A stretch of DNA of 56,767 nucleotides from Nitrososphaerales archaeon (GTDB lineage: Archaea; Thermoproteota; Nitrososphaeria; Nitrososphaerales; Gagatemarchaeaceae), in NCBI GenBank assembly GCA_030038395.1, contig JASHOZ010000033.1, positions 1 to 56,767 of the forward strand, read 5' to 3'. This document shows positions 28,475 through 40,831 of this stretch, piece by piece. How positions within the stretch are numbered: position 1 is the stretch's first letter; each line of letters begins with the position of its first letter. Below the pieces are notes generated by a model that was given only the letters and a program-made list of their open reading frames with translations, was not told the origin of the DNA and did no database searches. The translations under genes were made by a program, and so were the position numbers.

Positions 28475-29233
28475 CTAGGTCACGCGCGTCCCGTCCGTCA
28501 GGAAGATGTCAGCGTCCTCGAGACTCACCGATCTGGACGACAGGACGGGGCCGAACTGGAACGACTTGCTCCTGTTGATGGGCTGGCCACCGACTAGCCT
28601 GTTGAACGGAGGCATTACTGTGAGCTTGCCCGATCCACGGGGCCGCGACTCGTACCCCGCCCCTTCCATCAGGGCAGCTACGTCGTAGGCTGCCGATACC
28701 CACACGGCCTCCCTGGTCCTCGCTCCCAGTGAGTCTTTCATCTCGTAGGTGAAGTGGGAGTGACCGATCACAAGGTTCCTGGTCGCGATGGCCTCCTCTG
28801 AAGGCCATGCATGTCCGTGGGCCAGCCCGACCCTTCCGCGCCCGCTCCCGAGGACCATCCCCTGCGAGGGGTGCAGCCTCACCCGGGGCGGGAGGACAGT
28901 CTTGATGTTGCCGTCGTGGTTCCCGGGGACAACGTCGACCTGCTCGAACAGGTCGAGCATCGTCTGGAAGAACCAAGGGACCACCCCCCAGTCGATATCT
29001 TCGACCTTCCCCACCGTGTGCTTCACGTCTCCGAGGACTGCGAGGCGGGCGGCGCGGTGCCTCTCCGCCAAGTCGCGTATCCTCGCCACCATCTTGACGG
29101 AATAGGGAGGGAGACGGAAACCCTTCTTCGCGAGCTCCTTCTCGAGCCCGAGATGGAGGTCGGACACCAGGAGGGTCGAGCCTCCCTCGCCGGCGTACAC
29201 GAGCGCGGCCTCCCCGGGGACTATCTTGAGCAA
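28475..29233 (-). CDS. Metallophosphoesterase associated with Lhr helicase
   Basis: 252 residues. Metal and catalytic motifs of the calcineurin-like fold are present: LLVSDLHLGLEKEL (DxH), LAVLGDVKHT (GDxxH variant), VVPGNHDGNI (GNHD), LAHGHAWPS and IGHSHFTYE (GHxH-like). This family occurs next to Lhr helicases in many archaea and is suggested to act on the 3' or 5' ends of DNA or RNA. Here a gene of unknown function and the Lhr helicase are immediately upstream on the same strand, so the three probably form one operon. Confidence 0.88.
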   Translation of the reverse strand: MLKIVPGEAALVYAGEGGSTLLVSDLHLGLEKELAKKGFRLPPYSVKMVARIRDLAERHRAARLAVLGDVKHTVGKVEDIDWGVVPWFFQTMLDLFEQVDVVPGNHDGNIKTVLPPRVRLHPSQGMVLGSGRGRVGLAHGHAWPSEEAIATRNLVIGHSHFTYEMKDSLGARTREAVWVSAAYDVAALMEGAGYESRPRGSGKLTVMPPFNRLVGGQPINRSKSFQFGPVLSSRSVSLEDADIFLTDGTRVT

Positions 29234-29234
29234 G

Positions 29235-29918
29235 CTACGCGATCAGCGGGAGTATCTCTCCCCTGATGAACGAGCCGAACTCGGACATCTCCATCCGGCT
29301 GAACCCAGTGACGACGCAGTTCCTCGTCACCCCCAGGACGTACCCCGTCTTCGCGCTCTTCAGCACGAGGTACCAGAGCTTCCCATGGGTAAGGTAGTCA
29401 GAGTACAGCGTCGTATTGCCAAGGCTGTCGCCGTACAGCGAAAGCTTGCTTATGCTCGGGATGTCCATGTCGTCGAAGAAGACTATCTTCGTCTCCTCGA
29501 AGTTCTTCTCGTGGAACTTTCTCATCGTCTCAGGGTCTATCCTGGCTTCGACTATCTGCCCCAGGCTGAGGAATACGGCCTTGCTCATCTCGTTGGCGAC
29601 GTTGTTCGCCCTGTTCTTCTTATCGTAAACGATCAGGAACAGTCTGTCCTTGAACATGTTGAACGAGAACGGTGCCTCGAAGGTCCGCGGTACGGGGAGC
29701 GCCTTGTCCCTGTGCTTGACCACGAAGACCGAGTCGAAGGAGAACGTCCCCTCGAGCGTCCCCTTCCCCGCCGTGAGGTCCGTTATCTCCGAGATGAGCT
29801 TGAAGTCCTGGTCTTCCACGGTCGTCTCCGTCTCGACCTTGAAAGCCTTCAGTTTCTCGGCTAGGACGTCCATGTCGGAGTCCTCCCTCACAAGAAAGAC
29901 CTTCCCAGCCAGAACCAA
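29235..29918 (-). CDS. Conserved protein of unknown function in the Lhr operon
   Basis: 227 residues, which I do not recognise. It starts with a short beta-rich part (KVFLVREDSDMDVLAEKLKAF), has many aromatic and charged residues, and no signal, membrane segment or cysteine cluster. Its C-terminus reaches one base before the metallophosphoesterase start, and the helicase lies 35 bases upstream, so it should be co-transcribed. A role with the helicase and nuclease is an inference from context only. Confidence 0.6.
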   Translation of the reverse strand: MVLAGKVFLVREDSDMDVLAEKLKAFKVETETTVEDQDFKLISEITDLTAGKGTLEGTFSFDSVFVVKHRDKALPVPRTFEAPFSFNMFKDRLFLIVYDKKNRANNVANEMSKAVFLSLGQIVEARIDPETMRKFHEKNFEETKIVFFDDMDIPSISKLSLYGDSLGNTTLYSDYLTHGKLWYLVLKSAKTGYVLGVTRNCVVTGFSRMEMSEFGSFIRGEILPLIA

Positions 29919-29953: not shown

Positions 29954-32791
29954 TCAGTTCCCCCAGAACTGCCGCGTCGTCACGAACCTTATCTTCGCCT
30001 CGAGCAGGTCACGGTAAAACGCCTCGTCGTCGTCTCGCATCCCCGCGAGTATCCTCGACGCCGTCTGGGGTCCGATGCCATACACGGTCTGGGCCACGAC
30101 CGCATTCTTGCCGTACGACAGGACGAGGTCCGCCGCCCGCCTCGCCTTCGACAGTTCGGTCCTCTCTTCCTCCGACATCGGTGCCGCCGTCTTCCGTTTC
30201 TGAAGGAGCGCCGTCACCCTCCCGGTCCCGTAGTAGCACGGGGTCATCAGTCCCGAGCCGCAGCTCGTGCACCTGGGCTCGTCCACCAGATCGCCGACTG
30301 CGACAGCGGGCTGCTCGGTCCCGCACTTCATGCAGACGAGGCTCACTTCGGTGCCGAATATGCTCGCCTTCATCCTCTGATAGGACGACCTCCCGAGTGA
30401 GTCCGGGGCCACCGCCTCCGGGACCTCGAGGTACCTGTACAGGAGGGCGTACGCGATCGGCGTGGGCCTATCGCCCGCGAGGAAGGTCTCGACTGCTATC
30501 TCTCCTCTCGCCACTCGCCTCAGCACCTCCTTCCCGTTGGCCATGTCTATCAAGTCCCGCCCGGTCTCCTGCAGCGCCTCCTCGAAGACGGGGGTCTTCT
30601 CGAACCTCGTCGGGAGTGAGCAGAGGTTGGGGTGGGCGATGAGCTTCCCCCTCTTCAGCGCGCCGAACCGCTCGGCAACATGCTTGACCCGGGCGGGGAA
30701 TGGGAAGTTCCGCTGCGCGGCGACGGCGTAGGTCCGCTCGAGCTCCTCCGGGGTGAGCCCCATCAGCTCCCTGGACAGTGCTTTCAGGTCGACATCCTCC
30801 GCGTCCATCGTCAGCTCCATCAGGACTCTGTACCCGTCCAGCCACCAGACTCTCACCAGCCCCCTTCGCGATAGGATTTCCTCGAACACGTAGGCGAACG
30901 TCCTGTTCACCGACTCGCCGAAGCACAGGTGCACTATCAGGTACTTCCCGAACCCCTCGAAGAGCACCAGCCTGTCCGACGGGACAGGTGCGCCCATCTT
31001 CTTCTGCTCCGTAATCTGGTCGGCGACGAGCGCCCTCGCCGGGGCGCTCCCTGGTATCTCGTTCAAAGCGTCCTCTGCGGCTCGCTCCCCGGCTTCCAGG
31101 CCTTCCGACACCGCTCTCCTGAGCCTTCCGGTCTCCATCGCCAGCTCGAACGGGATCGGGAGCATCTCTCCGTCCCACGTCGCGACAGCGGCGAGCGGGT
31201 CTTCGACGGGCGTGACGTAGATCTTCCTGTCATCCGCGACCTGTTCGATCTGCCATACCCTCCCCTTCAGGATGAAGTGCACCCCTGGCTTCGCCTTGAG
31301 CAGGACGAACTCCTCCCCGAGTATCCCGACGGAGCCGTTCGTCGACACGTCGACGACGAGGTATCGCGTCTCGTCGGGGATCATCGACAGGTTCTCGAAG
31401 TAGTACTCTCTCGTCATCGCAGTTCGGCTCAGCGCCTTCCCGCCCAGCCTCACCTTCCCGAGCTCTGCCAGGTAGGCAACGGTCCGATCAAACGCTTCCC
31501 TCTGCAACTCTCTGAACGGCGAGGCCTTCCTCACCTCCCGCAGGAGGTCGTCAGCGTCGATGGTCTCGAAGTCCATCAGGTACCCCGCGACCTGATGTGC
31601 GAGGACGTCGAGCGAGTTCGAGTACGGCCTGGTGGGCTCGATTGAGCCCCGCCTTGCGGATATGATGCTGGCCGCAGACTCGAGGACGTCATCTGCGGAC
31701 ACAGTAAGGAGCACGCCCTTTGAGACCTTGGTCAGGGAGTGTCCGCTCCTCCCGACGCGCTGCACGAGCGCGGTCACCTGCCTCGGGGACATGTACTGTA
31801 CGACCAGGTCGACCGAGCCGACGTCTATTCCGAGCTCAAGAGTGGAGGTGCAGACCAGGGCCTTGAGCTTCCCTGACCTGAATTCGTGCTCGACTCTCTC
31901 CCTCTCTTCGCGCGGGAGCGACCCGTGATGTACCCCGACGTCGCTGCGCAGTCTCGATAGCTTCTCTCCGAGCATCTCCGCGAGCGTCCTGCTATTCACG
32001 AACAGCAGGGTTGACACATGTTCTCCTATCAGTCCGTCAATCCTCGCGAGCCTGGCGGCCAGGTCCGGGGCGGAGTACGTCTCCCTAGCCGTGGACTGGT
32101 CCCCGGGGTCCGGGACGGGATACTCGATGGCGTAGGTCGACCCTTTCGGCGCCGGGGTCTTCACCAGGCTCCTCGCCCTCGTCCCGAAGATGAAGTCGGC
32201 GGCCGTCTCCGGCGTCCCGACGGTCGCGGAGAGCGCGACCAGTTGGTATCCAGGGGCCACCTTCCTCAGCCTCTGGAGCCCTACGCACAGCTGCACCCCC
32301 CGCTTGCTCTCCACGAGGTTGTGCAACTCGTCCACTACGACCCCCTTGACGTGCGACAGGTTCTGGCGCATCCTCTTCCCGGGGAGGATCGCCTGGAGCG
32401 TTTCAGGAGTCGTGACGAGCACGTCGGGCGGGTTGGCCGACTGTCTTGCCCGCTGCGATTGCGAAGTGTCGCCGTGTCTGATGTCCACCGTAAGGCCGAG
32501 CTTCGAACACCAGCCCTGGATCCTCTTGAGCATGTCCCTGTTCAGGGCGCGCATCGGAGTGATGTACAGGAGCGAGACTCCTTCGCCCCTCCCTCCAGTC
32601 ACCACCCTCCCCAGAAGGGGGAGGAGCGCGGCCTCCGTCTTCCCCGAGCCCGTCGGCGCGATAATCAGGACGTCGTCTCCACGCGCTACGATTGGCCAGG
32701 CCTCGGCCTGCGGGGGCGTCGGCTCCCTGATCCCACTTTCGATGAGGAGTGTCCTGATCTGTGGCGCCAAGGCGTCCGTCGGGCCTGTCAT
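29954..32791 (-). CDS. Lhr-type superfamily 2 helicase (copy 1)
   Basis: 945 residues with two RecA domains: Walker A APTGSGKT at 45-52, TPMRALNRDM, DELHNLVES (motif II with DELH), SATVGTPE (motif III), TSTLELGID and QRVGRSGH (motif VI). The winged-helix and Lhr core follow. A C-terminal zinc finger (CMKCGTEQ ... CTSCGSG) and a YGIGPQTASRIL helix-hairpin-like segment end the protein. Lhr helicases unwind 3'-5' on DNA and DNA-RNA hybrids. The gene heads an operon with the unknown protein and the metallophosphoesterase and is divergent to the SMC-like gene. Confidence 0.93.
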   Translation of the reverse strand: MTGPTDALAPQIRTLLIESGIREPTPPQAEAWPIVARGDDVLIIAPTGSGKTEAALLPLLGRVVTGGRGEGVSLLYITPMRALNRDMLKRIQGWCSKLGLTVDIRHGDTSQSQRARQSANPPDVLVTTPETLQAILPGKRMRQNLSHVKGVVVDELHNLVESKRGVQLCVGLQRLRKVAPGYQLVALSATVGTPETAADFIFGTRARSLVKTPAPKGSTYAIEYPVPDPGDQSTARETYSAPDLAARLARIDGLIGEHVSTLLFVNSRTLAEMLGEKLSRLRSDVGVHHGSLPREERERVEHEFRSGKLKALVCTSTLELGIDVGSVDLVVQYMSPRQVTALVQRVGRSGHSLTKVSKGVLLTVSADDVLESAASIISARRGSIEPTRPYSNSLDVLAHQVAGYLMDFETIDADDLLREVRKASPFRELQREAFDRTVAYLAELGKVRLGGKALSRTAMTREYYFENLSMIPDETRYLVVDVSTNGSVGILGEEFVLLKAKPGVHFILKGRVWQIEQVADDRKIYVTPVEDPLAAVATWDGEMLPIPFELAMETGRLRRAVSEGLEAGERAAEDALNEIPGSAPARALVADQITEQKKMGAPVPSDRLVLFEGFGKYLIVHLCFGESVNRTFAYVFEEILSRRGLVRVWWLDGYRVLMELTMDAEDVDLKALSRELMGLTPEELERTYAVAAQRNFPFPARVKHVAERFGALKRGKLIAHPNLCSLPTRFEKTPVFEEALQETGRDLIDMANGKEVLRRVARGEIAVETFLAGDRPTPIAYALLYRYLEVPEAVAPDSLGRSSYQRMKASIFGTEVSLVCMKCGTEQPAVAVGDLVDEPRCTSCGSGLMTPCYYGTGRVTALLQKRKTAAPMSEEERTELSKARRAADLVLSYGKNAVVAQTVYGIGPQTASRILAGMRDDDEAFYRDLLEAKIRFVTTRQFWGN

Positions 32792-32913: not shown

Positions 32914-34920
32914 TTGTCAGGCCGCACCGAGGAACTATCCAGCGAGTCTCCCGCCCCGCTCACCACGGTCAGGGAGATAATCCTCGAGAACTTCATGAGC
33001 TACGAGTACGCCCGGATCCCACTGCGAGGCGGGCTCAACCTCATAATCGGTCCCAACGGCGCGGGCAAGTCTTCCGTCCTCCTGGCTATTTCGGTCGCGT
33101 TCGGGCAGGCCTACACGGAGAGGTCCCGCAAGCTCTCTGACCTGATCAGGCGAGGGAAGGACATCGCCAGGGTGTCGCTCATATTCGACAACTCGGCGAA
33201 GCAGGGGAGGCGGCCGATCCCCTACTCGAAGTCAGACACCTTCATGCTCAGCCGGTATCTCCGCCGGGACGGGTCGTACTGGTTCGAGGCAGACTACAAG
33301 GAGATAGACAAGAGCGAGGTCGTCAGACTCCTGAAGGAGTTCGGCATCAACCCCGACAACCTCCTGATCATCATGCACCAGGGGATGATCGAGGAGTTGG
33401 GCGCCGTGACGCCGCAAGAGCGCCTGAGGATGGTCGAGGAGGCGGTCGGGTTCGCTGAATACCGGCAGAGGATAGTCCAGGCGGAAGAGGAGCTCGGCGG
33501 CCTCATCGGAGAAGAGAGCTCCCTGCTCCAGCTGATCGACAACGCCAACCAGGCGCTCGAGTACTGGAAGCAAATCTACGACAGGTATCAGGAGAAGAAG
33601 AAGCTCATCGAGCACGTCGCGCTCCTGAACAAAGAACTGCTGTGGAGCACCGAGGCCAAGTTGACGAAGTCCCTCCAGTCGGTCGAGGCGAAGATAGCCT
33701 CGAAGCTGAGGGTCCTGGAGGACCTGAAGTCCCAGCAGGCGGAGGCGTCCTCGGACGCCGACCAGACGCACCAGACACTCCTGGACAAGCAGGTCGAGCT
33801 CAGGAAGTTCTACTACGCCCTCATCAGGGCCGAGTCAGAGAAGGCAAAGGACGAGTCCACCAGGGCGGCGTACAAGGCCGTCAAGGAGGACCTCGCGGGG
33901 CTCGCGAAGACACTCGACGAGGTCTTGGCCGGCGTGTCAGAGAAGCAGGCGAAACGGGCTAGGGAGTACGTGGGGTACATCTCTGGCAAGGGGGTCGCCG
34001 GCGAGGCGGACGCCGAACGGCGGAAGGTGGACCTCGAAAGGGAGGTGTCGTCGCTGCAGCCCGAGATCAGCAAGACAGAAGAGCTGATCAGGAAGGCGAT
34101 GGACACCTACCTCGGCTTCCGCGTGAAGTCCGAGGTCCTGTCGTACAGGGTAAAGGTCACCGAGTCGGACCTGCGCGACCTCGAGCGGGACGCCAGAGAG
34201 GCGAGAGCCGAGATGGAGAAGATTGCGCCCGCTCTCGCCGACGCGGGAGCGAGGGTCGAGACCTCGCGCCAGCCCTACGAAGTGTCCGAGGAACTGAAGC
34301 TCGCCTCGGCGCACGTGCAGAAGATGCAGGACGTGCCAGACGAAGCCGAGAAGATCTACAACGACTACTCCGGTAACGTCGACGAGTTGAAGGTCAAGCT
34401 CGCGAAGCTCCAGGAGAACAAAAAGGCGATGCTCGCTGAGCTCGAGTCGAGGAAGAGCGTCTGGCGGGCCGCGATGGAGAGGCTCGTGGAGTCCGCCGAT
34501 CCTGCGTATCAGGCGGTCCTCGCCGCGGCCGACGCGAGCGGTTTCATCAAGTTCGAGGAAGGGGGCGACATCGAAGACGCGGGGATCGCGCTCTACGTCG
34601 GCTTCAGAGGGGGGTCACCGACGACGCTCGACCCCTTCACGCAGAGCGGGGGGGAGCGCTCGGTCGCCCTCATGGCGTTCCTCCTCTCGCTGCAGGGGAG
34701 GATCGTCTCGCCGCTCCGGGCAATGGACGAGTTCGACATCCACATGGACCCGAGGAACAGGGAAGCCATGTTCAAGATGATCCTCGCGCAGATGAAACAG
34801 AGGGCCGCCTCGCAGTACATCGTGATCACGCCCTCGATACTCACAGTCTTCGACAGGAGCGCGCACGTCATCACGGTGCAGTCGGTCCATGGCTCCACCG
34901 AGGTCAAGGAGCTGAAGTAA
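32914..34920 (+). CDS. Short SMC-like ATPase resembling Smc5/6
   Basis: 668 residues. The N-terminal half-ATPase has IGPNGAGKSS (residues 45-53) and a Q-loop MHQG at 154-157, followed by long charged heptad-rich regions of about 400 residues with no cysteine, so no zinc hook, and no canonical SMC hinge that I can see. The C-terminal half has the ABC signature QSGGERS (577-583), Walker B LRAMDEFDIHMD with D605 and E606, and a D-loop. MDEFDxxMDxxxR is the form seen in Smc6-type proteins, unlike Rad50 or canonical SMC. Ordinary SMCs are much longer (about 1100-1200). Archaeal Smc5/6-related proteins are known in outline. It heads a three-gene operon. TTG start. Confidence 0.85.
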   Translation: MSGRTEELSSESPAPLTTVREIILENFMSYEYARIPLRGGLNLIIGPNGAGKSSVLLAISVAFGQAYTERSRKLSDLIRRGKDIARVSLIFDNSAKQGRRPIPYSKSDTFMLSRYLRRDGSYWFEADYKEIDKSEVVRLLKEFGINPDNLLIIMHQGMIEELGAVTPQERLRMVEEAVGFAEYRQRIVQAEEELGGLIGEESSLLQLIDNANQALEYWKQIYDRYQEKKKLIEHVALLNKELLWSTEAKLTKSLQSVEAKIASKLRVLEDLKSQQAEASSDADQTHQTLLDKQVELRKFYYALIRAESEKAKDESTRAAYKAVKEDLAGLAKTLDEVLAGVSEKQAKRAREYVGYISGKGVAGEADAERRKVDLEREVSSLQPEISKTEELIRKAMDTYLGFRVKSEVLSYRVKVTESDLRDLERDAREARAEMEKIAPALADAGARVETSRQPYEVSEELKLASAHVQKMQDVPDEAEKIYNDYSGNVDELKVKLAKLQENKKAMLAELESRKSVWRAAMERLVESADPAYQAVLAAADASGFIKFEEGGDIEDAGIALYVGFRGGSPTTLDPFTQSGGERSVALMAFLLSLQGRIVSPLRAMDEFDIHMDPRNREAMFKMILAQMKQRAASQYIVITPSILTVFDRSAHVITVQSVHGSTEVKELK

Positions 34921-34921
34921 C

Positions 34922-35680
34922 ATGGAGGACCGCAGACTCGAGGACCTGCTCAGAGTGATCGAACTTTGCAGGTCAGTCGAGACGAGCAGCGCCAACCCCT
35001 TCGACGTCGACATCAGGGAGAAGATCACGCTCTTGAATGACAGGCTCCCGGGCTGGAAGTTCCTCGACGAGCTCCTGGTAGACTCTGAGGCGATGTTCGA
35101 GCTCGCGCAGATCGTGAAGCTCCAGGACGAATGGCTCAAGCACAGGGCCTCGTCGCTGTACATCGACCCGCTCCTCATCCAGCTGAAGGTCAAGCTCCTC
35201 TCCAGGGACGACCTCGTCGAGTCCTTCGTCAGGAGCTGGCATCCTGTCGCACAGCTGGACCAGATATCGCCGAAGGGGCTGGAGCGCGCGTTCGTCTACT
35301 GGAGGGACCTCTCTCCGATGGCAGAGCGCTTCAGAGAGGAGTTCGGCAGCTACGGAGCGAAGACTGGCGCGGTAGACTACGAGGAGCTGGTGTCGCTTGG
35401 CATCTTCACGAAGAGTCAGTTCGAGGAGGGGCTCGCCGCGTTGCACGAGGAGCTGGCCGCGCAGTCGAAGGGGGAGTGGGTCGACTACAGCGGGTTCATC
35501 GGGTCCCAAGACATAGAGACACGGGTCAAGAGGGCCTACCTCCTGGCCTTTCTGATAAGCGAGGGGCGAGCGTCGCTCAGGACCGAGCCCTTGACGGGGA
35601 GGATCTGGACTACGTCGCTCGAGTCGAAGGCGAAGGGCCCCCCGAGGTCGGTCGCCATATCGGTTACAGGTGGCGCCTGA
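34922..35680 (+). CDS. Kleisin-like protein (ScpA/Nse4 type)
   Basis: 252 residues. The N-terminal part (LLRVIELCRSVE ... NPFDVDIREKITLLNDRL, residues about 9-42) has the length and DxxDI-type pattern of a ScpA N-terminus, followed by the helical FELAQIVKLQDEWLKHRASSLYIDP. The C-terminus RVKRAYLLAFLISEGRASLRTEPLTGRIW resembles the winged helix of kleisins (FLAxLEL ... VxLxQxxxFGxI). No significant signal from any other family is visible. It begins one base after the SMC-like stop and its TGA overlaps the next ATG (TGATG). Kleisins bridge the two SMC heads. I judge the assignment likely but not proven. Confidence 0.6.
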   Translation: MEDRRLEDLLRVIELCRSVETSSANPFDVDIREKITLLNDRLPGWKFLDELLVDSEAMFELAQIVKLQDEWLKHRASSLYIDPLLIQLKVKLLSRDDLVESFVRSWHPVAQLDQISPKGLERAFVYWRDLSPMAERFREEFGSYGAKTGAVDYEELVSLGIFTKSQFEEGLAALHEELAAQSKGEWVDYSGFIGSQDIETRVKRAYLLAFLISEGRASLRTEPLTGRIWTTSLESKAKGPPRSVAISVTGGA

Positions 35681-36234
35681 TGGAGACGGCAGACAGGGCG
35701 TTGCTGGAGAGGAAGGTGAGGAGGGCGTTCCAGGTCCTCGTGCTCCAGCGCGGCAGGAATCCGGGTGTCAAGGGGTGGGAGATGAAGCGATACCTGGGAA
35801 GAGACTACAGGAAGATAGTCGAGGTGCTGTCAGAGGACGTCTCAGGGCTTGGCCTCGAGGTCTTCGAAGTGAAGGGGGCGGACGGGACGGATGACTCGGC
35901 CAGGTTCTTCCTCAGGTTCAGAGAGCCCCCGACTGTGAGCGAAGCTGAGACTTCTGGGATCAGGATCGACGACTTGGCCGTTCTCGCCGCCACCCTCGCA
36001 TTCGTCAACTCCAAGCAAGGGAGGGCGGCGAGGAGAGAGGTAGAGCAGTTCCTGCGGGAGAAGTTCCCGAAGTGGAGGGTAGAGTACTCGCTCGACAGGT
36101 ACGTCAAGAGGGGCTATCTGGAGCAGGACGAAAGGACGATGCTGCACGCCGGCTGGAGGACGCACGCCGAGGTAGATGAGAAGACCCTCATGACCCTGAT
36201 CCTTTCCAGGGCTCAGGAAGGCTCCAAGAAGTAG
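35680..36234 (+). CDS. Double winged-helix protein, MAGE/Nse3-like kite candidate
   Basis: 184 residues. It begins with RKVRRAFQVLVLQRGRNPG and WEMKRYLGRDYRKIVEVLSEDVSGLGLEVFEVK, followed by a second domain with IDDLAVLAATLAFVNSKQG, ARREVEQFLREKF, YVKRGYLEQ and LHAGWRT. The order of a long helix, a FLN-type turn, EELWEFL-type helix, RGYLE and a W-containing end resembles the MAGE homology domain of Nse3, one of the two kite subunits of Smc5/6. ATG overlaps the kleisin stop. Its 3' end overlaps the convergent second helicase by 22 bases. I cannot run a profile search, so this is an inference. Confidence 0.55.
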   Translation: METADRALLERKVRRAFQVLVLQRGRNPGVKGWEMKRYLGRDYRKIVEVLSEDVSGLGLEVFEVKGADGTDDSARFFLRFREPPTVSEAETSGIRIDDLAVLAATLAFVNSKQGRAARREVEQFLREKFPKWRVEYSLDRYVKRGYLEQDERTMLHAGWRTHAEVDEKTLMTLILSRAQEGSKK

Positions 36235-39200
36235 CGACGCCTCAAGGCTTCGCGCTCCCCTTCGATTATCAGGTCCACCAGGTCAACGCCTTCCTTCCTC
36301 ATCTTCGCTGCCAGCGCCGCTGCTTCAGCGGTCCTGATCCCCCTTCCAGCAAGGAGCATGTCAGCGGCGTGCCCGTACTCGCTCCGCAGTTCGGCGGACT
36401 TCCTTATCGCTTCTGCCTGCCTGAGCCTCTTCCCCTTGAGCTCCGCCCTGCTACGAGCTTTCATCGAGAGAGAGAACACGTCCTCATACGTATCGTTCGA
36501 GACGCCGACCGCATCTTTCCCGCATGCCGGGCACTTCGCGAGTCCCTGCATGTCTCCGACACGTTTCAGCTCAAGATAGTCCCAGCAGTTTACGCATGTG
36601 GCGACGAGGAAGGTGTCGTCTATCCTCGCGCGGGTCGACTGCCGGAGCAGCGCCCTGAGCCTCTCCGGGGACACTATCTCCCCCCTCCTGCTTATCTCCT
36701 CGACGCCTATTCGCGCGATCGGTGAGAGCGCGGCCTGCTCGATCTGTCTGACCTCTATCGCGCCTGCCTTGATCTTGGCCAGGACGTCCGCGGAGCCGGC
36801 CAGGTCAAGGTCGTCATGGAATATCATGTTCATCGCCTCCTCGTACACCGGGGTGTCACGGAGCGACTCGATCAGCCCTGCGATCGAGACGCTTGCGTAC
36901 TCCGCGTCCTTGGCTATCGCCCCACACTTCTTCCCAGCGTGGATTAGCCTCCGCTTGAAGATCCCGCTCCGCTCGAGCGCCTCCTCCGTAGCGGCCCTCA
37001 GGTCCACCCCGCCAAGCTCGTCGAACAGCTCGACCGCGGCCGCCGGTCCCACGTCTGCCTCGATGACGATTCTGTACGGGTCCTGGTGCACCGCGACCGA
37101 CTGGCCGATCCTCTCGGAGATGCGGTGACCCATCACCCTGGCGAGGAGCCTGTTGACCTTGTGGCCGAATGCGGCCTGGATGACCACGTACCTGTCCCAC
37201 CTCTCCACGGTGACGAGCCTCTCTGACGGGATCGGGACGCCGGCTGCGCGCTGCTCGACGACCTCCTTCAGCGCATCAGCGGCCAGCTCCCTTGAGACGG
37301 GGTACGTCCGGCACAGCTCGTCGAGGTACCCCTCCTCGTTCCCCTTGTCAAGCTCCTCCGCGTACCTCCGCCGTATCATCCCGACCTCGGCTGCCACGTC
37401 TCTGGGGACCGGGATCTCGTCCCCCACCCAGTTCGGGACGGCGCCGGTGGGGTCGTCCTCGGCCTTGACGTAGACCTTGTTTCCGTAGATCTGCTCGACC
37501 TTCCAGCACCTGCCGGCTTCTACGAACTTCACCCCCACTTCCCCGTACTCGGATACGAACGCCTCGTCAAGCGTGCCGACGAAGCTGTCTCCTTCAATCA
37601 CGAGATACTGCCGCTCGTCCGGGATCATCGACAGGTTGTCGAAGTAGTAGCTGAAGAGCGGTTTGACGTCGCGAGCCCTGAACACCTTCCCTTCCGATTC
37701 GTTGTAGTACGCGAGCCGGGGGTACCTCTCTCTCATGTATGTAAGCACCTTCTTGAGCTTCTCCCCTTCGATTGCCGAGTAGACGTGGCTTCGAGAGAGG
37801 AGCGACTTCAGGTCGTCGAAGTTCCAGCTCCCCTGCTCGATCAGCAGTCCGGCTATCTGGTGGGTCGCCACATCGTACGGCTCCATGACTGGCTCGAGCG
37901 GCTCGAGCTCTCCGGCCCTCGCCTTCCTGCACAGAACGGCCGCCTCGAGGGTGTCGTCCGAGTCTTGCGTGATGATCATCCCGTTCGACGCCTCCCCTAC
38001 CCTGTGACCGCTCCTCCCCACCCGTTGGACGAGCCTGGTCGCCTGTCGCGGCGAGTTGTACTGGACGACGTACTCGAGGAAGCCTATGTCGATCCCCAGC
38101 TCGAGGCTGCTGGTGCATATGACGCCGAGGAGCTTCCCATCCTTCAGGTTCCTCTCGACCGCCTCCCTCGTCGCCTTGGACAGAGAGCTGTGGTGTATCC
38201 CCATCGGGAAGCGGGGGTCCCAGACGCGGAATCTGCTGGCGAGCGCCTCGGCCTCTGTGCGCGTGTTGGTGAAGACCAGCACCGACTTGTACCTCTCGAC
38301 CGCATCCCTGATCGTCCTGAGCCTCGCCGCGACGTCAGGGAAAGAGTAGATGGCCTCGGCCAGAATCCTGTCTTCCCCGGCAGCCCTCGGCGCGACGACC
38401 TTCAACGCGAGGCTCTTCTCGACGGGGACCCTGACCACTTCGCAGTCCCTCCCGTTTCCCACCAGGAACTTCGCGACTCTTTCGGGCGACCCGACCGTAG
38501 CCGACAGGCCTACCATTTGCAGCTCGTTCTCGGCAGCGTCGCGAAGCCTCTCGAGTCCGACGCTCAACTGGCTCCCCCTCTTGTCCTCCGCCAACTCGTG
38601 GACTTCGTCGACGACCACCCACCTTAGCTTCGAAAGGTTCTGCCTGATCCTCCTGCCTACTAAGAGGATTTGGAGCGTCTCGGGCGTCGTGATCAGGAAC
38701 TCGGGAGGGGCGAAGCTGAGGTTGGTCCTCTCCGCCTGCGAGCTGTCCCCATGCCGCACCCCCAGCCGTATGTCGAACCGCTTGCACCACCACTGCATCC
38801 TCTCCAGCATGTCCCTGTTCAGGGCGCGGAGGGGCGTGATGTAGAGGAGTTTCGTGTTCTTGGCCCGTTCTTCGCCCTCTCTAATCAGCGCGTCGAGGAC
38901 TGGGAGGATCGCGGCCTCCGTCTTTCCTGTCCCCGTGGGGGCCATCAGCAGAGCGTTCTTCCCTGCCCTCACCAGCGGGACGAGCTTGGTCTGCGGGTCC
39001 GTCGGGCTCACGAACCCTTTCTCCTTGAGGGCCTGGACTAGAGGTGGCGAGAAGAGTTGGAAGACGTTCTGCTCGCTCAGTGGCTCTTCCCACCTTTGTG
39101 CGAAAGGTCTCTGATCAAAGTCCCCACTAGAAGATACATTCCGTCTGGTTCCTCCTCCAATAAGGTTCCGGTAACTCCAACCTGCAGTCTCATGACTCGG

Positions 39201-39266
39201 AGCCTTCAGCCGCAACTCTGGAGTCAGCGCGACGCCTTGACACCCTCGGACGCGCGCCATGAGCAA
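36213..39266 (-). CDS. Lhr-type superfamily 2 helicase (copy 2)
   Basis: The full frame is 1017 residues. Walker A APTGTGKT, TPLRALNRDM, DEVHELAED, SATVGSPER, CTSSLELGID and QRVGRSGH are all intact, and a C-terminal zinc finger is CVNCWDYLE ... KCPACGK. Similarity to other Lhr proteins begins only around FQLFSPPLVQALKEKGF, i.e. near position 39080. The only codon there that could act as start is CTG; the first ATG would add about 60 unconserved residues. The two helicases are clearly paralogous, with the same domain order. Its 3' end runs into the SMC-like operon. Confidence 0.9.
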   Translation of the reverse strand: MLMARVRGCQGVALTPELRLKAPSHETAGWSYRNLIGGGTRRNVSSSGDFDQRPFAQRWEEPLSEQNVFQLFSPPLVQALKEKGFVSPTDPQTKLVPLVRAGKNALLMAPTGTGKTEAAILPVLDALIREGEERAKNTKLLYITPLRALNRDMLERMQWWCKRFDIRLGVRHGDSSQAERTNLSFAPPEFLITTPETLQILLVGRRIRQNLSKLRWVVVDEVHELAEDKRGSQLSVGLERLRDAAENELQMVGLSATVGSPERVAKFLVGNGRDCEVVRVPVEKSLALKVVAPRAAGEDRILAEAIYSFPDVAARLRTIRDAVERYKSVLVFTNTRTEAEALASRFRVWDPRFPMGIHHSSLSKATREAVERNLKDGKLLGVICTSSLELGIDIGFLEYVVQYNSPRQATRLVQRVGRSGHRVGEASNGMIITQDSDDTLEAAVLCRKARAGELEPLEPVMEPYDVATHQIAGLLIEQGSWNFDDLKSLLSRSHVYSAIEGEKLKKVLTYMRERYPRLAYYNESEGKVFRARDVKPLFSYYFDNLSMIPDERQYLVIEGDSFVGTLDEAFVSEYGEVGVKFVEAGRCWKVEQIYGNKVYVKAEDDPTGAVPNWVGDEIPVPRDVAAEVGMIRRRYAEELDKGNEEGYLDELCRTYPVSRELAADALKEVVEQRAAGVPIPSERLVTVERWDRYVVIQAAFGHKVNRLLARVMGHRISERIGQSVAVHQDPYRIVIEADVGPAAAVELFDELGGVDLRAATEEALERSGIFKRRLIHAGKKCGAIAKDAEYASVSIAGLIESLRDTPVYEEAMNMIFHDDLDLAGSADVLAKIKAGAIEVRQIEQAALSPIARIGVEEISRRGEIVSPERLRALLRQSTRARIDDTFLVATCVNCWDYLELKRVGDMQGLAKCPACGKDAVGVSNDTYEDVFSLSMKARSRAELKGKRLRQAEAIRKSAELRSEYGHAADMLLAGRGIRTAEAAALAAKMRKEGVDLVDLIIEGEREALRRRYFLEPS

Positions 39267-39397
39267 CCGCGTGACACAGGGTGTACTCGGGCTTGCCCAG
39301 GATCGGCACTCGCTCCGCGCAGTCGCGGCTTGGAATTGAAGTCAACCCTTATCTATCAGGGGGGGAGTCACACGAACGCGACTTGGTATCACGACGG

Positions 39398-40831
39398 ATG
39401 TTGGTCGCCGCCGCCGTAATCATCTTACTCGCGCCACTCTCGCTCCTACACGTCGTGAACGCCGCCACGTCGATTGGAGTCGGATCGGAGCCGTGGGAGA
39501 TGGCTTACGACTCGACGAACGGCTACATTTACGCGCCGAACTCGGGCTCCAACTCGGTGTCTGTGATTGACACGGCGACGAACGCAGTCGTCCACACGAT
39601 AACTGACGTATCCTTCGACGAACCGATAGCCGTCGCGTTCGCCTCCACCGACGGCGAGGTCTATGTTGCCAACTTCGAGGACAGCACGATATCCGTGATA
39701 GATCCCGCGACCAACACGGTAACACAGGTGATATCGGCCGCGTCCTTCGACAATCCTCAGGGCCTTCTGTTTGTCTCGGCGGACAAGGCGCTCTATGTCT
39801 CCAACCTCTATGGGGACACCGTCTCCGTGGTGAACACCACCACTAACACAGTCGTCCATGTCATAAGCAGCGGCACCTTCTCTGAGCCGTACGAGATGGC
39901 GTACGTGCCGTCCAACGGGCTCGTCTATGTCACTAACTATGCCTCCTCCTCGCCGAGCACGGTGACCATGTTCGCGCTCAACAACACTGTGGTAGGCACG
40001 ATAGGCGTGGGGTATACTCTCGGCGGGGACGAGCCGTGGGGGATCGCTTACTCCCCCTCAAACAACGACCTCTACGTGTCGGACTACCTCAGCGATAGGG
40101 TGGTCGTAATCGACGCGTCCAACAACGTCGCGAGCATCGATATCACTGTCGGTTCGTATCCGGAGGATCTGCTGTACTCTCCGAGCGACAACATGATCTA
40201 TGCCGCGAACTCCGGCTCGGACACCGTCAGTAAGATCAACCCATCGACCAACATGGTCGTGGCGACCTACGCCGTGGGAGCCCTACCCGCAGGTTTCGCC
40301 TTCGCCCCTTCGAATGACGAGGTCTACGTCTCGAACTACGACTCGGGGACGATATCCTATTTCGCCGCGCCTCCAAGCGCCGACAGCGTGATCCTCTCTG
40401 ACCTCGGAGAGCTCAACTCAAGCATCAACGCGATTGACTCGACGGTGAACGGCATCTCCAGCACCGTTTCGAATCTGCAGGCCACGCTTGCCGGCATCTC
40501 CTCCACAGTTGGCGGGATTGGCTCGTCTCTGGCGGGCATCACCACGACGCTGAACAACGTGTCGTCCACGGTGCAAGGAATCTCCGGCGCGGTAACGAGC
40601 CTCGAGTCATCAGTCTCGTCGCTCTCCACCACCCTCTCGAACGGCGTCAGCAGCCTGACGAGCGGCACAAACGGGGTTCAATCATCCGTCGACGGACTGC
40701 AGTCTTCAGTCTCTACTGTCAGCAACGACGTGTCGTCCATCATGGACCTGCTCTATCTCGTGTCCGCTCTGGTAGTGATATTCGGCATCCTTGCGCTCGT
40801 CATGGCGATGAGGAAGAACAAGGGCGCGTAG
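39398..40831 (+). CDS. Secreted YVTN/NHL beta-propeller with coiled-coil stalk and C-terminal anchor
   Basis: 477 residues from ATG 39398. A signal peptide (MLVAAAVIILLAPLSLLHVVNA) is followed by about seven YVTN-type blades (residues about 25-325) with motifs of the form VYVANxxSxTVSVIDxATNTVV. Then comes a Ser/Thr-rich region of about 110 residues (LSDLGELNSSINAIDSTVNGI onward) with a heptad-like hydrophobic spacing and no Pro or Gly-breaking charge pattern, consistent with a parallel coiled-coil stalk. One transmembrane helix (MDLLYLVSALVVIFGILALVMAM) and a basic end (RKNKG) finish the protein. The topology resembles surface layer stalk proteins. The ligand is unknown. Confidence 0.78.
   Translation: MLVAAAVIILLAPLSLLHVVNAATSIGVGSEPWEMAYDSTNGYIYAPNSGSNSVSVIDTATNAVVHTITDVSFDEPIAVAFASTDGEVYVANFEDSTISVIDPATNTVTQVISAASFDNPQGLLFVSADKALYVSNLYGDTVSVVNTTTNTVVHVISSGTFSEPYEMAYVPSNGLVYVTNYASSSPSTVTMFALNNTVVGTIGVGYTLGGDEPWGIAYSPSNNDLYVSDYLSDRVVVIDASNNVASIDITVGSYPEDLLYSPSDNMIYAANSGSDTVSKINPSTNMVVATYAVGALPAGFAFAPSNDEVYVSNYDSGTISYFAAPPSADSVILSDLGELNSSINAIDSTVNGISSTVSNLQATLAGISSTVGGIGSSLAGITTTLNNVSSTVQGISGAVTSLESSVSSLSTTLSNGVSSLTSGTNGVQSSVDGLQSSVSTVSNDVSSIMDLLYLVSALVVIFGILALVMAMRKNKGA

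Follow-up and report, generated by a model that had tools for sequence, protein, structure and literature searches.

An archaeal operon for a hinge-less Smc5/6-related ATPase, an Nse4-like kleisin and an Nse3-like kite protein: a candidate minimal complex of the Smc5/6 class

Do archaea possess an SMC-kleisin-kite complex of the Smc5/6 class? The question is raised by three adjoining genes on a stretch of DNA from a Nitrososphaerales archaeon (assembly GCA_030038395.1, contig JASHOZ010000033.1), 56,767 nucleotides long and here called the window, which lies in contig 53 of a 1.49-Mb archaeal assembly that is 91% complete. According to earlier descriptions, SMC complexes of archaea are kite-less (PMC7055376) and kite-based Smc5/6 complexes are eukaryotic. 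A preliminary description of the window had read the three genes as encoding an SMC-like ATPase, a kleisin-like protein and an Nse3-like kite that would together form a minimal archaeal Smc5/6 complex. In this study, the three proteins were compared with known SMC systems by profile, structure and phylogenetic analyses, and their genes were sought in related genomes. On the basis of homology, the kite fold and co-inheritance, we conclude that the three gene products probably make up a whole, if minimal, SMC-kleisin-kite machine that belongs to the Smc5/6 class; the identities of all three parts and the conservation of the operon support the preliminary description.

The layout proposed for the operon was confirmed in the sequence with regard to the ends of the three open reading frames (ORFs), the single base between smc and the kleisin gene (34921) and the single base shared by the kleisin and kite genes (35680). 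The TTG start codon of smc is kept at the equivalent position in close relatives. A scan for sigma-70 promoters and terminators, with a model that does not cover archaeal promoters, found nothing.

The SMC ATPase

Judged from its sequence, the SMC head belongs with eukaryotic Smc5 and Smc6 and not with any canonical SMC. When the PDB was searched with the single window sequence, yeast Smc5 (3e-30) and Smc6 (7.5e-24) ranked above prokaryotic Smc (1.3e-17); a family profile placed Smc6 (1.2e-47) and Smc5 (4.8e-44) before Smc2 (3.6e-33) and bacterial Smc (2.4e-29), and a broader profile again gave Smc6 (7.9e-56) and Smc5 (3e-54). The Smc2 and Smc3 queries both matched identical PDB chains. In a head-only tree of 52 sequences (eukaryotic rows few and long-branched, their letters taken from PDB alignments; Asgard representatives absent from the tree as from the comparison genomes), the archaeal family formed a single clade (85/90) that was joined with Smc5 and Smc6 (97/93) and fell outside the canonical archaeal SMCs and Smc2/3. 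Grouping of the family with canonical archaeal SMC was rejected by the approximately unbiased (AU) test (p 0.000275). Smc5 and Smc6 as sisters were not rejected (p 0.44), so that the branching among these two and the archaeal family is not fixed by the tree.

The window protein carries Walker A GPNGAGKS (aa 46-53), the signature QSGGERS (aa 577-583), Walker B AMDEFDIHMDP and an ITP motif (aa 638-640), and shares SGGERS, DEFD..MD and ITP with eukaryotic Smc5/6. Across the family the signature reads QSGGERSV, as in Smc5, and Walker B reads DEFD[IV]HMD, as in Smc6; the head therefore combines Smc5 and Smc6 features. The motif sequences given in the preliminary description were correct and their assignment to an Smc6-type form holds for Walker B, but the signature is rather Smc5-like. 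The ITP near the C-terminus is invariant in the family and common to Smc5 and yeast Smc6 (human Smc6 has LTP), whereas canonical archaeal SMCs carry ITL, VTL, VSL or ATL instead.

Full-length members of the family measure about 590-700 aa, and the tip of their coiled coil varies in length: the tip columns hold 0-74 residues, and in two Methanomethylicia members the tip is absent. A zinc hook and an obvious hinge had been said to be lacking, and both absences were borne out: no CxxC was present in any of about 55 full-length homologues, and Pfam SMC_hinge was found neither in the window SMC nor in the family listings for 28 homologues, while two canonical SMCs of the same order, serving as positive controls, gave SMC_hinge at 1e-15 and 1e-17. 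The short arms and the missing hinge set the protein apart from Smc5/6 as well as from the canonical SMC of Smc-ScpAB, which has a hinge and long arms. The ASRPs (coalescin, Sph) are likewise short archaeal SMC-related ATPases, but most of them have a zinc hook, and the ASRP model scored 29.5 bits on the window SMC against a cut-off of 300; no consistent flanking genes have been reported for ASRPs (PMC9389158). A single Smc5/6-like SMC gene per genome was found in those genomes that were examined closely, and the two different SMC subunits of a heterodimer, as in Smc5/6, were not seen there; additional rows in the SMC listing of the 299-genome sample described below were mostly pieces of one gene.

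The preliminary description had mentioned that archaeal Smc5/6-related ATPases were known already, and such a group, allied with Smc5/6, was indeed published by Yoshinaga and Inagaki (2021, as cited in PMC9389158); it very probably includes the present family. As cited there, the group is defined by the SMC only, with no kleisin or kite partners or gene order described.

The kleisin and the kite protein

Pfam identities of the two partner proteins come from family-wide scans (31 kleisins and 31 kites) and not from single-protein scans. The kleisin consists of an N-terminal helical, ScpA-like domain (aa ~5-72) and a C-terminal, Nse4_C-like winged helix (aa ~144-249). Pfam Nse4_C was matched by 26 of the 31 homologues (best 3.5e-7), and neither SMC_ScpA nor Rad21_Rec8 was listed for any of them. 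Among PDB entries, the kleisin profile ranked human EID3/Nse4b (4.7e-6) and yeast Nse4 (3.6e-5) ahead of an archaeal ScpA N-domain (0.12); the match of the N-terminus to Pyrococcus ScpA lies at E 0.027-0.12. The C-terminal winged helix was predicted with confidence and superposes on ScpA C-domains, with Nse4 as a weak top match. These comparisons class the kleisin as Nse4-type, which refines the ScpA-like patterns first recognized in it.

The kite model (predicted local distance difference test, pLDDT, 78) comprises tandem winged helices (WH1, aa 3-80; WH2, aa 96-157) followed by a C-terminal helix. In a Foldseek search the best solved matches were MAGE-G1/Nse3 (4.9e-6), the Nse1-Nse3-Nse4 complex (template modelling score, TM, 0.68) and Nse1, with the kites of Wadjet JetABC, MukE and ScpB lower down the list. 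By its predicted fold the protein is a kite of the Nse3/Nse1 kind, in agreement with the Nse3-like double winged helix that had been proposed; its sequence matches to MAGE are weak, Pfam MAGE being found in 7 of the 31 homologues (best 3.6e-4) and the Nse1 model, weakly, in one member. SMC_ScpB was unlisted for all 31 members and no RING family was found among them. A narrow kite profile gave no match in the PDB. The trio differs from eukaryotic Smc5/6 (Smc5, Smc6, Nse1, Nse3, Nse4) in having a single, RING-less kite, ~184 aa long, and shares with it the Nse4-type kleisin and a tandem winged-helix kite closest to Nse3/Nse1. Nse2, Nse5 and Nse6 were not seen in or beside the operon, no genome-wide search having been made for them. 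Our literature search found no description of archaeal Nse4 or Nse3 homologues; the SMC-origins preprint of van Hooff et al. (2024), which lay outside its reach, may contain one.

Distribution, linkage and neighbouring genes

The closest named relatives of the window are metagenome-assembled genomes (MAGs) of Nitrososphaerales or 'Thaumarchaeota', with kites up to 89% identical. In 41 related genomes, kleisin and kite were confined to one and the same set of 27, with the SMC gene adjoining in the same order. A broad sample of 299 same-phylum genomes, each at least 80% complete, contained the kite in 122, the kleisin in 124 (the two extra genomes being one weak match, E=7e-4, and one at a contig end), the Smc5/6-like SMC, counted at E<=1e-50, in 123 (with G073, a partial sequence, and G169 as extras and G329 missing) and all three in 121, as obtained by comparing the three listings. 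By name the carriers are Nitrososphaeria, Bathyarchaeota, Methanomethylicia, Hadesarchaea and a few Methanosarcinales-like MAGs. The kleisin gene lies directly upstream of the kite gene in 74/74 named loci with enough sequence, and the SMC gene directly upstream of the kleisin gene in 57/69 loci by a strict rule, or ~62/69 after correction, five of the 12 exceptions being artefacts of over-extended ORFs. The order of the operon is thus kept in relatives, and because the identical order recurs across many genera the arrangement is not a matter of chance. A canonical SMC with a hinge coexists with the trio in the same genomes. Sampled members of one family of the same order (f10) lack the SMC, the kleisin and the kite and retain the canonical SMC. 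Viral contigs yielded no kite, and the SMC matches there were generic ABC heads.

ScpA (PF02616) was not detected in four close trio-bearing genomes (G000, G004, G015 and G030), which leaves their canonical SMC without a recognisable kleisin. In two Bathyarchaeota loci (L167, 5135-5998; L169, 5129-5992) there is no SMC gene upstream of the kleisin, and the kleisin ORF starts with a stretch resembling an SMC C-terminus, VIAVQTVEGKSQ, possibly a deletion scar or the result of a gene rearrangement. The record of one locus (L181) bears the label Candidatus Hodarchaeaceae, a family that the NCBI taxonomy assigns to Asgard, but was rejected as an Asgard copy: the genome belongs with the Hadesarchaea in a phylum of 28 genomes, and label and placement are in conflict in the public record.

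The genes around the operon are listed with it in Table 1. An Lhr gene lies convergent to the kite gene within 1.5 kb in 43 of the 66 loci with enough sequence. Two Lhr-type helicases bracket the operon here, and both stand downstream of it in some relatives. The conserved 227-aa protein, with the motif FHExNxEDTKxIFFDDVDIPNIxKLSLYG, was found near the operon in 23/49 loci scored. Archaeal Lhr helicases have been connected with RNA metabolism as well as with DNA repair, and Lhr genes are known to have phosphoesterase genes as neighbours (PMC8301817).

Table 1. Features of the operon and its surroundings in the window.
Feature	Coordinates	Strand	Remarks
smc, hinge-less Smc5/6-related SMC ATPase, 668 aa	32914..34920	+	TTG start
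nse4-like kleisin, 252 aa	34922..35680	+	ATG start
nse3/nse1-like kite, 184 aa	35680..36234	+	ATG start
aLhr1-type Lhr helicase, C-terminal Cys motif	36213..39266	-	downstream of operon, convergent
YVTN-like beta-propeller repeat protein, C-terminal transmembrane-like stretch, predicted secreted/membrane-anchored	39281-40831	+	adjoins Lhr gene
Second Lhr-type helicase, C-terminal Cys motif (aLhr1-like)	29954..32791	-	upstream, divergent; conserved in close relatives
Conserved 227-aa protein	29235..29918	-	no Pfam or NCBIfam match
Calcineurin-like phosphoesterase, SbcD-related/PdeM-like	28475..29233	-	weak matches, below curated cut-offs

The proposed complex and competing explanations

In the complex that we propose, two copies of the one SMC would form an ATP-dependent head dimer bridged by one kleisin, whose N-terminal domain would bind one SMC at its neck and whose C-terminal winged helix would bind the second SMC at its cap. 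The middle segment of the kleisin would carry a dimer of the kite, which would clamp DNA atop the engaged heads in the way described for Nse3 in Smc5/6 (PMC10512200). Since the arms are short and a hinge was not detected, the ring would have to close either through the heads together with kleisin and kite or by contact of the coiled-coil tips. Since both a second SMC subunit and a hinge were looked for and not found, the trio is a homodimer-type, hinge-less variant and not eukaryotic Smc5/6 in the strict sense. The Lhr helicases and the phosphoesterase as neighbours suggest that it likely handles DNA junctions or damaged or replicating DNA beside the canonical SMC.

Several observations weigh against this proposal. 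The putative part in DNA repair is deduced only from the neighbour genes, and these lie on the opposite strand. Taken singly, the window kleisin and the window kite had no relevant Pfam match, and NCBIfam and PADLOC added nothing useful for either. The kleisin model as a whole is of low confidence (pLDDT 55); the kite profile reached its top PDB match, a MAGE-domain Nse3, at E 0.37 only; and the best single Foldseek match to Nse3, 5hvq_D, superposes poorly (TM 0.38), 7dg2_C superposing well. In some same-phylum families the SMC gene is located away from the kleisin-kite pair, and in MAGs labelled Methanosarcinales or Halobacteria (L173, L176, L196; G343, G344) it stands elsewhere in the genome, unlinked from that pair.

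The explanation that survives best beside a role in junctions or damage is that of a true SMC5/6-like complex serving, in the manner of coalescin, chromosome compaction or compartmentalisation and not DNA repair. We consider it somewhat unlikely: in the four close genomes without detected ScpA the trio may be the only recognisable SMC-kleisin complex, but the conserved linkage with an Lhr helicase and a PdeM/SbcD-like phosphoesterase fits DNA transactions better, and the absence of the trio from the f10 family, which keeps a canonical SMC, suggests that the trio is not the main condenser.

Much less probable is an archaeal Smc-ScpAB-type condensin with diverged ScpA and ScpB, whose likeness to Smc5/6 would reflect the ancestry common to all SMC complexes. 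Smc-ScpAB and archaeal Smc-ScpA do share with the trio the SMC-kleisin logic and the ScpA-like N-terminal kleisin domain, and the superposition of the kleisin winged helix on that of ScpA and the presence of MukE and ScpB lower in the kite list point the same way; against these stand the prevalence of Nse4_C among the kleisins with no ScpA or Rad21 model listed, the grouping of the SMC with Smc5/6 and the rejection of a canonical one (AU p 0.0003), the hinge-bearing canonical SMC of the same genomes and the kite-less state of published archaeal Smc-ScpA. A defence system akin to Wadjet/MksBEF or Lamassu, which would recognise foreign DNA and cut it, is the most improbable of all, for although MukBEF and Wadjet JetABC are kite-based with a related kite fold and PADLOC gave weak matches of the window SMC to mad3, LmuB and JetC (JetC at 38 bits over a coiled-coil stretch), these are matches to generic ABC heads, the heads, kleisin and genome context differ, the operon has no nuclease (no JetD match in the three proteins, no Toprim or other effector), viral contigs lack the kite, and the trio mostly occurs once per genome, keeps its gene neighbourhood and is spread broadly, in a lineage-consistent manner, over hundreds of species.

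The proposed Smc5/6-class complex would join an SMC, an Nse4-like kleisin and an Nse3-like kite in more than 100 archaeal genomes and provide the SMC5/6-related ATPases of archaea with the partners that were missing. That the trio bears on how eukaryotic Smc5/6 arose is plausible. More tentatively, the trio may be a surviving homodimeric, hinge-less Smc5/6 of one SMC, a kite and an Nse4 kleisin, near the state that preceded the duplications into Smc5/Smc6 and Nse1/Nse3, in which case the hinge gate would be dispensable. A homodimer-to-heterodimer origin and prokaryotic roots of Smc5/6 become testable with it, and a system of three proteins could be expressed whole for structural and loop-extrusion studies, where the absence of a hinge would probe whether the hinge is essential for the SMC mechanism.

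A separate observation concerns the canonical SMCs of Hadarchaeota (L248, L249), whose open frames measure only 768-779 aa and of which L248 gave no SMC_hinge match; these may represent a second hinge-poor SMC type in that phylum.

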